NCBI GenBank assembly: GCA_025774865.1
Contig: JALGZO010000063.1
Location: 1-14,308 of the forward strand
Length of the DNA: 14,308 bases
Origin: a bacterium
GTDB taxonomy: Bacteria > ARS69
Direction: 5' to 3'
Below the pieces are notes generated by a model that was given only the letters and a program-made list of their open reading frames with translations, ran no database searches and was not told the DNA's origin. The translations under genes and the position numbers were made by a program. Below, piece by piece: positions 1,162 to 10,576 of this stretch. How positions within the stretch are numbered: the stretch's first letter is position 1; every line of letters begins with the position of its first letter.

Positions 1162-2121
1162 GTGAGGCGCGACCATGAACCGGTCCTTCGGGACCGGGCC
1201 GTGGATTTCTGGGTCTCACCGGCGGCTGACCGTGTCGTCGACGGAACGGTGGGGCGCGCCGGCCATTCGCTTGCTCTCTTGGAGAAACATCGCGAGGTCA
1301 AGCTCCTTGCCCTCGATCGCGATCCCGACGCCGTCTCATCGGCCCAGCGCGGGCTCGCCGAGTTCGTCGACCGCGTGCAGGTCCGAGGTGGTTCGTACGC
1401 CGACCTCGGCGCGCACCTCGCCGAGTGGGGTGGCGGCCCGGCCGATGGGATCCTGCTCGATCTCGGCGTGTCTTCGCCCCAGCTCGACGACCCCGAACGC
1501 GGATTCAGCTTCCGGTTCGACGGTCCGCTCGACCTTCGGTTCGATCGCACCCGGGGGGAGTCGGCGGGGGCCTGGCTCGCGCGCGTCGATCCGGGTGAGC
1601 TGACGCGCGTCCTGCGCGAACTGGGCGAGGAACCTCGGGCGCGTCGCGTGGCGCGAGCGATCGTCGCGGCCCGCGAGGAGGCCCCGATCGACACGACCGG
1701 CCGGCTTCGAGACGTGATTCAGGGCGTCGCCGGACGGCGAGACGAAGTGAGCTCCAAATCTCTGGCGCGAGTGTTTCAGGCCATCCGGATCGCCGTGAAC
1801 GGCGAGCTCGAAGAGCTCGATCGGTTCTTGGACGGGCTCCGGGGTCATCTCGCGCTCGGTGGTCGCGTCGTGATCATCAGCTTTCACAGCCTCGAGGACC
1901 GACGAGTGAAGCGCGCCTTTCGCGCGGCCGCGCGCGACTGCATCTGTCCTTCGGAGCTTCCCGTGTGCGCATGCGGCGGAGGGCAAGCGTGGCTCCGCGT
2001 GCTCACGTCGCGCCCGGTGACGGCGGAACCGCACGAAGTCGAAGCGAACCCGCGGGCCCGGAGCGCCAAGCTGCGGGCCGCCGAGCGAGTGCCGACTCGG
2101 GGCGAGCGGGGAAACGAATGA
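1162..2121 (+). CDS. rsmH: 16S rRNA (cytosine(1402)-N(4))-methyltransferase RsmH
   Basis: 319 residues. RsmH (MraW) is a SAM-dependent enzyme that methylates N4 of C1402 in the ribosomal P site. Visible motifs: HEPVL at the N-terminus (5-9); SAM motif I as VVDGTVGRAGHS (25-36, with Ala33 where many members have Gly); acidic ALDRD (50-54); the family signature ILLDLGVSSPQLD (97-109), then RGFSFRFDGPLDLRFD; VVIISFHSLEDRRVKRAF near the C-terminus; and RSAKLRAAERV at the end. A CxC...CxC group (Cys260, 262, 269, 271) resembles that of other GC-rich RsmH proteins. GTG 1162 was chosen because GGAGGG (1151-1156) lies 5 nt upstream and HEPVL normally begins a few residues from the start. The frame stays open far upstream, so an annotation pipeline may extend it wrongly. 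The stop overlaps the ftsL start (ATGA). Confidence 0.95.
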   Translation: MRRDHEPVLRDRAVDFWVSPAADRVVDGTVGRAGHSLALLEKHREVKLLALDRDPDAVSSAQRGLAEFVDRVQVRGGSYADLGAHLAEWGGGPADGILLDLGVSSPQLDDPERGFSFRFDGPLDLRFDRTRGESAGAWLARVDPGELTRVLRELGEEPRARRVARAIVAAREEAPIDTTGRLRDVIQGVAGRRDEVSSKSLARVFQAIRIAVNGELEELDRFLDGLRGHLALGGRVVIISFHSLEDRRVKRAFRAAARDCICPSELPVCACGGGQAWLRVLTSRPVTAEPHEVEANPRARSAKLRAAERVPTRGERGNE

Positions 2122-2471
2122 GCTCGAATCTGCGCCGAGCGGAGAGGGCGGGACAGGCCGCAAAGACGACGATGCGCCGTCGACGGGAGCGTGAACGGGT
2201 GGTGTGGTGGACGACGGCCGTTCTTTTCGGCATCCCGCTTCTCTTCGTCGCGGTTTGGTTCCGGATGGAGGTCTCGACCGAGCTTCGGGTCCGGGACGAC
2301 CTGATAGCCGAGCGACGCCGTTTGGAGCGAGCCGTCGCGGAGCTGTCGGGCGAGAAGACACGTCTCTCGACGTGGGAGTCGATCGGGGCGCGTGCGCATC
2401 GAGCCGGATTGCGCCCGCCGAACACTTCCGAGGTTCTTTGGGTACGGGTGGGGAACGAACGGGGGAGATGA
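2118..2471 (+). CDS. ftsL: Cell division protein FtsL
   Basis: 117 residues with the FtsL layout: a short, strongly basic cytoplasmic end (residues 1-27, including RRRRERER), one membrane segment (about 28-48, VVWWTTAVLFGIPLLFVAVW), then a periplasmic helix rich in Arg, Glu and Leu (about 50-85) that should form a coiled coil. The tail SIGARAHRAGLRPPNTSEVLWV matches the usual FtsL/FtsB ending in which an 'A-x-x-x-G-L-x-P-P' turn precedes a beta strand. FtsL joins FtsB and FtsQ in the complex that activates FtsWI at the septum. FtsL is poorly conserved, so the call relies on topology and on position between rsmH and ftsI. ATG 2118 overlaps the rsmH stop, with GGGGAA just upstream, suggesting translational coupling. 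It ends 4 nt before ftsI. Confidence 0.88.
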   Translation: MSSNLRRAERAGQAAKTTMRRRRERERVVWWTTAVLFGIPLLFVAVWFRMEVSTELRVRDDLIAERRRLERAVAELSGEKTRLSTWESIGARAHRAGLRPPNTSEVLWVRVGNERGR

Positions 2472-2475
2472 TCCG

Positions 2476-4011
2476 ATGCGAAGAAGCCAGCCGACGGCGC
2501 GGTTCGAGCGCCGGCTCGTCGTAGGGGCGCTCGCCACCTTCATACTCGGTGGTCTGGTGGTCGCACGACTGATGCAGGTGCAGGTCGTCCAGGCGGAATC
2601 GCTCAGCGCCGAGGCCAAGAGCCAGCAGCAGCGAACTCAGGAGCTGGCGGCCGCGCGCGGCGCGATTCTCGCGCGCGGGGGTGAGCCTCTCGGCATGACG
2701 GTTCCGTCGGATCCCCGAGGGGGTCGGGGAGCCGAACGGGCTTACCCGCGCGGGTGCCTGGCCGCCCACATCATCGGGTTCTGCGGCGCGGACGGTCGTG
2801 GTCTCGAAGGCGTCGAGCTCGCCTTCGAGCAGCATCTGAAGGGGCGGTCGGGCTCCCGCGTCGTCGCGGCGAACGCGCGCGGCGACCTGTCCACCATGCC
2901 GGGCAGTCGGTTGAGGGCCGCCGAGGACGGCGCGACCCTCATTCTGACCATCGACGCGACGGCGCAGTCGGTGCTCGAACGCGAGCTGAAGGAGTGCGTC
3001 GAGAAGTCGGGGGCGATCAGCGCCACGGCGATCCTGATGGATCCACGGACCGGCGACGTGTACGCGATGGGGACGTACCCCAACTATGACCCCGGAGCCC
3101 CGAGCGCTTCGCGCGTCGAATTCCGTCGCAACCGGGCGATCACCGATGTGAACGAGCCCGGGTCGACGTTCAAGATCGTGACGGCCGCGGTGTGCCTCGA
3201 AAGGGGAATCGCGACGCCCGGAACGCTGGTCGAGTCGAGCAAGGAGCTCGGCCTCCAAGGTGGGCGTCTCCGAGACAAGGAAGACTACGGATGGGTCACG
3301 CTCGAGGAGACATTGACCCTTTCCGTCAACACGGCCACGGCGCGCCTGGCCCGTCAGGTCGGGGCCGAGTCTCTTTATCAATACGCGCGCGCGTTCGGTT
3401 TCGGGTGCGTCACCGGAATAGACCTGCCCGGTGAGGTGTCCGGAATCCTTCGTCGTCCGGCGAACTGGTCCGGCCGCTCCCTGGAGACGATCTCGATCGG
3501 GCAGGAGGTCGCGGTAACCCCGATCCAGCTCGCGTCGGCGTACGCCGCGGTGGCGAACGACGGTGTGCTCATGAGGCCGCGCCTCGTGAAGGAGATCCGC
3601 GACTCCTCCGGCAAGATCGTGCGGAGCTTCCGCGCGACGAGGATCCGGCGCGTCGTCTCATCGAAGACTGCGGCGACACTGACTGAGATTCTCGCCGCCG
3701 TCGTGGAGGACGGCACCGGCCGCGAGGCTCGCATTCCGGGGCTCGGCGTCGCCGGTAAGACCGGTACGGCGCAACGTGTCGATCCGGAGACCGGCCGCTA
3801 TGACTCCCGGCGACACGTGGCCTCGTTCGTCGGATTCCTTCCCGCCCGCGATCCCAAGCTGGTCGGTGTCGTCGTGGTCGATCGCCCTCAGGGCGTCGGC
3901 TACGGCGGACAGGTCGCGGCGCCTTGCTTTCGCCGCATCGTGGAGGGAACTCTCCTCACGAGTCGCGGTTCCTCGAATCTCGATCTTCCTTCGATCCGCA
4001 CCGATCTCTGA
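2476..4011 (+). CDS. ftsI: Septal peptidoglycan transpeptidase FtsI (class B PBP), with a shortened N-terminal module
   Basis: 511 residues. FtsI (PBP3) crosslinks septal peptidoglycan as the partner of FtsW. It has a basic start, a membrane anchor (about 14-30), the class B module opening with RGAIL (61-65), and a transpeptidase domain with all three motifs: STFK (230-233, nucleophile Ser230), SVN (283-285) and KTGT (428-431). Spacings in the catalytic domain (53 and 198 residues from the Ser) are close to E. coli PBP3. The distance from the RG motif to the Ser is only 169 residues, against about 236 in E. coli. Only 14 residues (74-87) separate EPLG from RAYPRGCLAAHIIGF, where a whole lobe normally lies, so the protein lacks most of the head of the pedestal module. 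No PASTA domains. ATG 2476 has GGAG 8 nt upstream; an in-frame upstream start at 2392 would overlap ftsL. Confidence 0.92.
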   Translation: MRRSQPTARFERRLVVGALATFILGGLVVARLMQVQVVQAESLSAEAKSQQQRTQELAAARGAILARGGEPLGMTVPSDPRGGRGAERAYPRGCLAAHIIGFCGADGRGLEGVELAFEQHLKGRSGSRVVAANARGDLSTMPGSRLRAAEDGATLILTIDATAQSVLERELKECVEKSGAISATAILMDPRTGDVYAMGTYPNYDPGAPSASRVEFRRNRAITDVNEPGSTFKIVTAAVCLERGIATPGTLVESSKELGLQGGRLRDKEDYGWVTLEETLTLSVNTATARLARQVGAESLYQYARAFGFGCVTGIDLPGEVSGILRRPANWSGRSLETISIGQEVAVTPIQLASAYAAVANDGVLMRPRLVKEIRDSSGKIVRSFRATRIRRVVSSKTAATLTEILAAVVEDGTGREARIPGLGVAGKTGTAQRVDPETGRYDSRRHVASFVGFLPARDPKLVGVVVVDRPQGVGYGGQVAAPCFRRIVEGTLLTSRGSSNLDLPSIRTDL

Positions 4012-8049: not shown

Positions 8050-9455
8050 AGGAGGAAGTCGGCATCAGCGCCAAGCTCGTCAACGAGCGAGGACCTTCCC
8101 TGAACGAAGCAGTCGTGGTCGTTCTGGGTTTCGGTCGAAGCGGGCGCTCCGCCTCGCGGCTCCTCGCGGAAGCCGGAGCCCGGGTTCGGGTAACCGACGC
8201 CTCGTCCGTCGCCGAGCTCGGGGTCGCCCCGGGGGACATCCCCGGCAGCCCGGAGTGGATGGGACGGGAGCATCCGTCGATCCTCGCCGGCGCCGACCTC
8301 GTCGTCGCCAGCCCTGGCGTTCCCCCGACGAACCCCGTGCTCGCCCGGGCTCTCGAGTCGGGGCTGCCCGTGCGCAGCGAGCTCGAGCTCGGGTGGTGGT
8401 TCACCAACGGTCCGGTGATCGGGATCACGGGGACGAACGGGAAGACGACGACGTCGGAGCTCGTCGGAGAGATGGGAAGAGCCGCGGGCCGGTCGGTCGC
8501 GGTCGCGGGCAATGTGGGGCGACCGGTGTCGTCCCTCTCCGGCGCGGACCACGACCTCTTCGTGCTCGAGGTGTCGAGCTTTCAGCTGTTCCTGTGTGAG
8601 GACTTCCGACCTCACGTCGGGGCGATCCTGAATCTCGCGCCGGACCATTTGGATTGGCACCCGGACTTCGAGCACTACGCGAACTCGAAGAAGCGCATGT
8701 TCGATCGCCAGCTTCCGGAGGACGCCGCAGTCCTGAACGGGACCGATCCCGAAGTGACATCGCGTTTCGATCGACTGCCGGCGGAGCGCTTCTTCTTCCA
8801 GGAGTCGCCCGCGCCCGAACGCGGTGCGTTCATCCGGGACGAGAGGCTCACCTTCCACCTCGGGAACGAGCTCGAGTCGATCTTTCCGCTGTCCGAGTGG
8901 CGCCTCACCGGTCGTCACAACCGCGAGAATCTCCTCGCGGCGGCGCTGTGCGCGCGGCTCATCGGACTTTCGGACGAAGCGATCGTCGCGGGAGCGCGCC
9001 GCTTCCGCGGGCTACCGCACCGCATGGAAGTCGTGGCGACGATCGACGGGGTGACCTGGATCAACGACTCGAAGAGCACGAACCCGGCGTCCCTCGAGAA
9101 GGCGCTCGACCCGGAGGTCCCCACGCTGCTCGTCGCGGGGGGGATCACGAAGGGTTGCGACTTCCGCCCCCTGCGCGACGCGGTGGCGGCGGGCGCTCGC
9201 GTCATCTACCTCATCGGGGAGGGGGCGGCGGGGCTGGCAGAGGCGTGGCAGCCCGTGGCCGAGACGGTGCGGGCCGGCGACCTCGAAACGGCGATCGATC
9301 TGGCCGCTGAGAAGGCTCGGGAAGGCGAGCGAGTCCTGTTTTCGCCGGGGTGCGCCAGCTTTGATCAGTTCGAGCACTACGCGGAACGCGGCGACCGTTT
9401 TCGGGAGCTCGTTCGTGAGCGCGAAACCACGAGACACACGGAGGGTCGAGAATGA
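8046..9455 (+). CDS. murD: UDP-MurNAc-L-alanine--D-glutamate ligase MurD
   Basis: 469 residues (E. coli about 438). Cytoplasmic Mur ligase that adds D-glutamate. The N-terminal Rossmann-like domain shows VLGFGRSGRSASRLL, followed by the P-loop GITGTNGKTTT (126-136). Then come EVSSFQLF, LAPDHLDWHP, GRHNRENLLAAAL, NDSKSTNPAS (340-349), the MurD-type LLVAGGITKGCDF, and near the end VLFSPGCASFDQFEHYAERG. These last three distinguish MurD from the other Mur ligases. ATG 8046 overlaps the mraY stop (ATGA). The first 17 or so residues (MKEEVGISAKLVNERGP) have no clear MurD counterpart, so the true start may be slightly downstream, though no better start codon is visible. The 3' end overlaps ftsW. 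Confidence 0.96.
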   Translation: MKEEVGISAKLVNERGPSLNEAVVVVLGFGRSGRSASRLLAEAGARVRVTDASSVAELGVAPGDIPGSPEWMGREHPSILAGADLVVASPGVPPTNPVLARALESGLPVRSELELGWWFTNGPVIGITGTNGKTTTSELVGEMGRAAGRSVAVAGNVGRPVSSLSGADHDLFVLEVSSFQLFLCEDFRPHVGAILNLAPDHLDWHPDFEHYANSKKRMFDRQLPEDAAVLNGTDPEVTSRFDRLPAERFFFQESPAPERGAFIRDERLTFHLGNELESIFPLSEWRLTGRHNRENLLAAALCARLIGLSDEAIVAGARRFRGLPHRMEVVATIDGVTWINDSKSTNPASLEKALDPEVPTLLVAGGITKGCDFRPLRDAVAAGARVIYLIGEGAAGLAEAWQPVAETVRAGDLETAIDLAAEKAREGERVLFSPGCASFDQFEHYAERGDRFRELVRERETTRHTEGRE

Positions 9456-10576
9456 TTCGAGGGGGTGTGGCCGACCGGATCCTCCTCCTCACCGTGCTTC
9501 TTCTGCTGGGGTTGGGGAGTGTGGTGGTGTTTTCCTCGAGCACGGCCGTGTCCGAGGAGTACTTCGGAGCAAGCACGAAGATGATCGTCAGCCACCTCGT
9601 CAAGGTGATGATGGGGCTTGGCCTCCTGTTCCTGCTGTCGCGAGTCGACTACCGGGCGATTCGTCGGCTGGTGCTGCCGCTCGTCGCCGCCTCGACGGGG
9701 CTTCTCGCGCTGACGCTGGTGCCGAACTTCCCGTGGGCGGTGACGACGAAGGGAGCGACCCGGTGGCTCGACTTCGGCTTCATGGTCGTGCAGCCGGCCG
9801 AGCTCGCGAAGCTCGCCCTGGTCATCTACATCGCATCGATCCTGTCGTCGGGCGAGGGGCGCATCCGCGACTACCGCCGCGGGTTCGTACCGGTCTTGAC
9901 GGTGCTCGGGATCTTCGTCTTCTTCCTCGTGCAGCAACCGAACTTCGGCAACGTCCTCACGCTGAGCCTGCTCGCGGGTGTCATGCTGTTTCTCGGCGGC
10001 GCGCGGCTCGTGCACCTCTTCGGCTCCGGTCTGTCGACGATGCCTCTGGTCGTGTTCATCGCGATCCAGGAGCCGCACGTGATCCGGCGGTTCAAGACCT
10101 TCTTCGATCCCGGCGCCGATCCGCTCGGGGCTGGCTTCCAGCTGCGCCAGTCGCTCGTGGCGCTCGGGTCCGGCGGTGTCTTCGGGCTCGGACCGGGGGC
10201 GGGCCGCCAGTCGGAGTTCTTCCTGCCGGACCCGCACACGGATTTCGTATTTGCGGTCCTCGGAGAAGAATTTGGACTTCTCGGCACCCTCGCCGTGGTG
10301 GCACTCTTCGGATTGCTCATGTGGCGCGGCGCCGTGATCGCCCGTCGCGCGAAGGACTTGTTCGGGCGGTACCTCGCAATCGGCGTGACGGCGATGATCG
10401 GGATCGTCGCGTTCCTGAACGTCGCGGTCGTGTTGGGGCTCGCGCCGACCACGGGACTGCCGCTGCCGTTCGTGAGCTACGGGGGATCGGCGATGATGGT
10501 GAATCTCGGGGGGATCGGCATCCTGCTGTCGATCGCGTCCCGGGCGGGATTGGGACGACGCAAGGTGGTGGGGTGA
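9452..10576 (+). CDS. ftsW: Septal peptidoglycan glycosyltransferase FtsW (SEDS family)
   Basis: 374 residues. FtsW is the SEDS-family enzyme that polymerises lipid II at the division site as partner of FtsI. About nine or ten hydrophobic segments are visible, starting at residues 9-28. The large extracytoplasmic loop carries PDPHTDFVFAVLGEE with the catalytic aspartate Asp264. Other family marks are KGATRWLDFG, QPAELAKLALV, QPNFGNVLTL, GFQLRQSLVALGSGG, and NVAVVLGLAPTTGLPLPFVSYGGS (FVSYGGS at 340-346). It is FtsW rather than RodA because of its place in the dcw cluster beside ftsI; sequence alone separates them less clearly. ATG 9452 overlaps the murD stop, with GGAGGG (9440-9445) 6 nt upstream. 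A 46-nt spacer separates it from murG. Confidence 0.95.
   Translation: MIRGGVADRILLLTVLLLLGLGSVVVFSSSTAVSEEYFGASTKMIVSHLVKVMMGLGLLFLLSRVDYRAIRRLVLPLVAASTGLLALTLVPNFPWAVTTKGATRWLDFGFMVVQPAELAKLALVIYIASILSSGEGRIRDYRRGFVPVLTVLGIFVFFLVQQPNFGNVLTLSLLAGVMLFLGGARLVHLFGSGLSTMPLVVFIAIQEPHVIRRFKTFFDPGADPLGAGFQLRQSLVALGSGGVFGLGPGAGRQSEFFLPDPHTDFVFAVLGEEFGLLGTLAVVALFGLLMWRGAVIARRAKDLFGRYLAIGVTAMIGIVAFLNVAVVLGLAPTTGLPLPFVSYGGSAMMVNLGGIGILLSIASRAGLGRRKVVG

Follow-up and report, generated by a model that had tools for sequence, protein, structure and literature searches.

A headless FtsI in a bacterial dcw cluster, a lineage-wide and apparently recurrent variant of the division transpeptidase

The window, by which we mean the whole stretch of 14,308 nucleotides analyzed here, is an entire contig (C63) of the source genome, G000, and holds most of a dcw cluster. 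Its genes run in the order mraZ, rsmH, ftsL, ftsI, murE, murF, mraY, murD, ftsW, murG, murC, murB, and the start of ftsL overlaps the stop of rsmH. The genes and protein parts considered below are as follows.

2118..2471, + strand: ftsL, 117 aa, membrane helix and coiled coil, presumed partner (TIGR02209 E 2.5e-4, below cut-off; conserved in 5/5 genomes)
2476..4011, + strand: ftsI, a headless class B penicillin-binding protein (PBP), 511 aa (PF00905 E 5e-73; dcw position between ftsL and murE)
2497..2589, + strand: N-terminal membrane helix of FtsI, residues 8-38 (AlphaFold2 model)
2656..2661, + strand: RG motif, residues 61-62 (invariant in alignments A1 and A2)
2686..2706, + strand: first neck strand, residues 71-77, PLGMTVP (AlphaFold2 strand; equivalent of the FtsL contact P72-P78 in P. 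aeruginosa, PMC7614612)
2707..2730, + strand: junction loop in place of the head lobe, residues 78-85 (AlphaFold2 model; gap against headed FtsI in A2)
2731..2748, + strand: second neck strand and RxYP, residues 86-91 (AlphaFold2 strand 86-89; equivalent of the FtsL contact F151-P156 in P. aeruginosa, PMC7614612)
2749..2934, + strand: remaining pedestal (linker and anchor subdomain), residues 92-153, kept (PBP_dimer match 87-137; structural alignment with PBP3 chains from residue 51)
3025..3945, + strand: transpeptidase domain (PF00905; SxxK Ser230 in EPGS, codon 3163-3165; SVN 283-285; KTGT 428-431)
9452..10576, + strand: ftsW, presumed glycosyltransferase partner (TIGR02614 350 bits, cut-off 337.5)

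The product of the window ftsI is FtsI (class B3 PBP), a known enzyme; what differs is its natural, lineage-wide headless form. It has a single N-terminal membrane helix followed by a pedestal, and its PF00905 domain is complete with the SxxK, SxN and KTG motifs all in place, bearing out the intact transpeptidase domain described in the first-pass annotation. The slot between ftsL and murE is the same in the window and in four relatives. Profiles of related enzymes fall short of their cut-offs, both for PBP2/MrdA (TIGR03423, 290.8 against 455) and for SpoVD (TIGR02214, 385.9 against 688). The PBP_dimer profile (PF03717) does match (29.7 bits, cut-off 24.4), but only through its C-terminal part, profile positions 107-174 of 180; the head lobe of the pedestal, which is usual in FtsI though no formal criterion for it, is missing. 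The window protein carries no PASTA domains. Headless FtsI proteins of four other lineages (L125, L129, L131 and L201) do have C-terminal PASTA domains.

The distance from the RG motif at residue 61 to the active Ser230 is 169 residues, as first reported, compared with 224-285 residues in the headed FtsI proteins we measured (spacings of 373 and missing values returned by the motif regular expression are motif-matching artefacts and were left out). Exactly 169 residues separate the two motifs in 5/5 genomes of the phylum, which represent five genera. Because the source assembly is fragmented (785 contigs) and its contamination is estimated at 8.3%, an assembly error, a frameshift or a local deletion in one strain might be suspected. 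However, the window frame is open and its neighbors are whole both upstream (mraZ, rsmH, ftsL) and downstream (murE to murB), as had been noted from the sequence, and the relatives G001-G004, each of another genus, share the spacing at 60-67% identity and within intact clusters. Equal spacing in four further genera rules out an assembly error, to which we assign a negligible probability; the full-length FtsI in close relatives that would have pointed to such an error was not seen. Alignment on the fixed motifs PLA..P before the gap and R.YP.G after it shows that 8 residues of the window protein stand in for E. coli residues 89-165, a stretch of 77 residues (the residues that PMC10390529 and PMC7614612 name served to verify our numbering of the E. 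coli and P. aeruginosa proteins). The junction, bases 2707-2730, lies within the interval 2694-2745 to which the loss had been assigned.

An AlphaFold2 model of the window FtsI, built with 37 relatives (pLDDT 92.7, pTM 0.87), covers the whole chain and contains no head. At the neck it places strands 71-77 and 86-89, which a brief loop connects into a short hairpin. A headed control from Krumholzibacteriia (L063), run through the same pipeline, has neck strands 69-81 and 140-149 with an insert of about 58 residues between them, made up of a pair of longer helices plus one strand and one short helix (89-131). As judged from alignment and prediction, the head lobe is cleanly removed and the two neck strands are joined by a short loop. 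The initial description, loss of most of the pedestal/head lobe, holds for the head lobe; the linker and anchor of the pedestal remain. That a head might be supplied in trans or by other protein segments is scarcely credible, as the model of the full chain has none and FtsL, a short protein of the usual kind, carries no additional domain.

The window protein resembles FtsI/PBP3 of P. aeruginosa and E. coli (4kqo, 8bh1) in dcw position, membrane helix, linker, anchor, transpeptidase motifs and the neck positions that contact FtsL, and differs from E. coli PBP3 in the 77-residue head lobe. With P. aeruginosa PBP3 (4kqo, a 513-residue chain), 442 residues of the model align at 2.0 Å (fold Z about 52). 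The closest likeness to the natural cut is an engineered one. In EcTPd* (7onn), a linker of three glycines connects V88 of E. coli PBP3 to E164, with little change elsewhere in the fold (PMC8301747); the two cuts coincide to within a residue or two. Unlike the window FtsI, which keeps its anchor and membrane helix, EcTPd* is man-made and soluble, with the anchor loop deleted as well. A short PBP3 chain like 7onn in length and numbering, 8gpw, aligns with the model over 397/399 residues. Solved chains whose best-matching stretch crosses the junction include 8gpw/7onn as well as short chains, 4mnr among them (P. aeruginosa entries in that structure search are a chance match inside the head).

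Some of these short chains, 4jbf (482 aa) and 4mnr (457 aa), may be of the PbpA type, a headless class B PBP family (PF21922), and a PbpA-type protein could in principle stand in place of FtsI. The pedestal profile of this family has just 83 positions and aligns across the junction of the window FtsI, and one headless lineage, f100, scores 29.4 with it. The window protein itself, however, reaches 26.7 bits, below the cut-off of 27, and is closer to FtsI/SpoVD-type chains (258 bits) than to 4jbf (151 bits). It also lies in the dcw cluster between ftsL and murE, where we know of no PbpA. On these grounds replacement by PbpA is disfavored and, in our judgment, highly unlikely.

Whether the lost lobe matters for activation depends on where FtsL binds. 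In the P. aeruginosa FtsWIQBL complex, FtsL touches anchor residues of FtsI and the head residues L64, P72-P78 and F151-P156 (PMC7614612), and in models of the E. coli proteins the AWI contact is formed by two neck strands of FtsI, V84-P87 and Y168 (PMC10390529). The equivalents of the FtsL-contact positions in the window FtsI are residues 63, 71-77 and 86-91; all are present, and the packing positions among the neck contacts are mostly hydrophobic within the phylum. The removed tip corresponds to approximately residues 80-150 of P. aeruginosa FtsI, for which PMC7614612 lists no FtsL contact. By alignment, the ‘head’ contacts of FtsL are neck contacts that are kept here, and the loss is confined to the tip beyond the neck. 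We know of no solved partner of the FtsI head tip. Since the contact positions are all kept, FtsL could still find its main docking site despite the loss of the head, and because these contacts lie in the neck, head loss alone need not mean loss of the FtsL interface. The first-pass annotation had proposed an altered activation interface; the lobe on which that proposal was based is indeed gone, but the proposal was overstated, as every FtsL-contact position in the neck is present.

FtsL itself has distinctive residues at the corresponding surface. Its residues 77-80 (SGEK, window 2346-2357) place Ser-Gly (2346-2351) at the positions occupied in E. coli by the hydrophobic pair I85-L86. Across the phylum, an ungapped, by-eye alignment of the coiled coils puts Ser/Glu-Gly at the equivalents of I85-L86, which pack on the FtsI neck, and Lys or Arg at the equivalent of E. 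coli E88, where E88K is a superfission substitution. With Ser-Gly in place of the hydrophobic pair, the contact between FtsL and the neck may differ in detail.

Loss of the head might also rewire activation, leaving FtsWI without an FtsN-like input or constitutively looser, which we regard as possible but less likely than not. In the E. coli models, FtsN L75-P79, a poly-proline stretch, is predicted to bind the FtsI head, and FtsN bridges head and anchor (PMC10390529); for PBP2 it is mainly the head to which its partner MreC attaches (PMC5626683). The Lys or Arg that our by-eye alignment places at the E88 position of FtsL is a further point in favor of rewiring. The neck residues of the FtsL contact are kept, however, which argues against it. 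In addition, FtsN is not known from many of the headed phyla, so the presence of a head need not be tied to that of FtsN.

Taken as a whole, the sequences and the model are, we think, likely to be explained by a gene for the phylum’s division FtsI whose head has been cleanly lost, which functions normally in FtsWI by way of neck and anchor, and for which the tip is dispensable. Under this explanation the window protein would most likely be a normal FtsWI transpeptidase, FtsL would dock on the neck and anchor that are kept, and FtsQ, FtsB and FtsL would hold the transpeptidase domain off the membrane. The conservation of headless FtsI throughout whole lineages suggests that the head is dispensable for division there, and that the tip, with whatever binds it elsewhere, can be spared in septal synthesis.

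To survey the distribution of this form, a profile of headless N-terminal parts (A1) was run over 386 genomes, with one unbroken match of at least 80 bits as the threshold. Such a match was found in 17 genomes from seven families (f1, f89, f100, f118, f130, f137, f149); the match of headed FtsI to A1 is typically split into two pieces. One further genome, G149, whose profile span had suggested a possibly headless FtsI, proved to be headed, with 232 residues from RG to Ser. Headless FtsI occupies the equal dcw position in six families besides that of the window. At the loci examined, all seven families have rsmH and then the headless ftsI, and in the headless lineages examined ftsI is closely preceded by a short FtsL-like frame that combines a membrane helix with a coiled coil. 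Downstream, most headless families have murE, while f149 has ftsW and murB instead (a count that omits f100, G290 and G232). The RG-Ser spacing in headless families is 157-188 residues; a value of 211 for L127 stems from a chance upstream RG, the true spacing being about 161.

Entire phyla are affected. All ten genomes in the phylum of f130 (10/10) and both in the phylum of f118 (2/2) are headless, as are 93 of 100 in the phylum of f89 (rows counted by hand). Two fairly complete genomes of genus g362 in f89 (G465 and G487) gave no headless FtsI match, in an otherwise headless phylum. The phylum of f137 includes a sister family, f260, that is headed, with 231 residues from RG to Ser. Headless FtsI is a lineage-wide and apparently recurrent variant. 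A full-text literature search, mostly outside subscription papers, found no prior description of a natural headless FtsI in a dcw cluster.

The elongation enzyme presents a different picture. The other class B PBP of the source genome (contig C184) is PBP2/MrdA (TIGR03423, 597 bits, cut-off 455). Like FtsI it is a class B PBP with a SEDS partner, yet it retains a complete PBP_dimer domain (positions 3-177) and lies in an mreB-mreC-PBP2-rodA cluster. A PBP_dimer search of this genome matched only the window FtsI and PBP2/MrdA, which answers the question, raised at the outset, of a second FtsI: none was found in this assembly, with or without a head. Every headless genome except G001 (67% complete) has a PBP_dimer protein outside the dcw cluster, the protein of G004 being truncated by a contig edge; six of these proteins were classified and all are PBP2/MrdA. 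Head loss hits the divisome PBP, and the elongation PBP2 keeps its head where tested. The presence of headless FtsI and headed PBP2 in the same cells suggests differing partner needs in division and elongation. A PBP2-like frame in G003 (C2:86837-88156, L117) contains one internal TGA.

Did the head vanish once or several times? In a careful tree, parsimony calls for six changes (6-7 over the 5-95% range of bootstrap trees, 0% of which have one). Headless f137 groups with headed f260 (89/96), within one small phylum, and headless f118 groups with headed Actinomycetota (86/96); the junction loops, moreover, vary in length and sequence. All of this counts against a single ancient origin of headless FtsI with later spread by inheritance or by transfer between lineages. 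In favor of that scenario, the AU test on the careful tree does not reject a single headless clade (p 0.305), deep FtsI branches are weakly supported, and among quick trees the one held to a single headless clade scored even higher. Several losses are favored by these phylogenies, and we consider a single origin unlikely.

A broader reading, to which we give an even chance, is that the head lobe is an optional module that bacteria, whole phyla among them, have dropped several times. On this reading the cut always falls just above the neck to which FtsL binds, the lobe has been lost, at least for the most part, by the divisome enzyme and not by that of the elongasome, and septal synthesis in these lineages is controlled via neck and anchor alone. 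The variant is of interest as a natural test of head function in FtsI: division with a headless enzyme would mean that septal synthesis can proceed without the tip, and the contribution of the tip could thereby be told apart from that of the neck. Headless lineages also offer naturally compact FtsI proteins for structural work, similar to the trim engineered to crystallize E. coli PBP3.

Among the genomes of the phylum, G003 yielded candidates for all of FtsW, FtsI, FtsL, FtsB and FtsQ. In G003, ftsQ-, ftsA- and ftsZ-like genes follow murB; the FtsQ candidate (L200 7006-7797) is named by position and has no NCBIfam match. A search with PF04977 recognized no FtsB in G000, G001 or G004. Divergent FtsB candidates occur in G002 and G003, that of G003 adjoining enolase, and the same profile found FtsB/DivIC in every headless genome tested from other phyla. 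A missing FtsB as the cause of headlessness was rejected on this evidence. Because FtsB/DivIC or candidates for it are found in other headless genomes, its absence from G000 and G004 may reflect assembly or divergence. The PF04977 score of the G003 candidate is very weak, and the FtsB-like candidates of the phylum (L226:1171-1857, + strand; L218:1371-2222, - strand) carry a basic N-terminal extension, about 100 residues in length or longer, that precedes the membrane helix.
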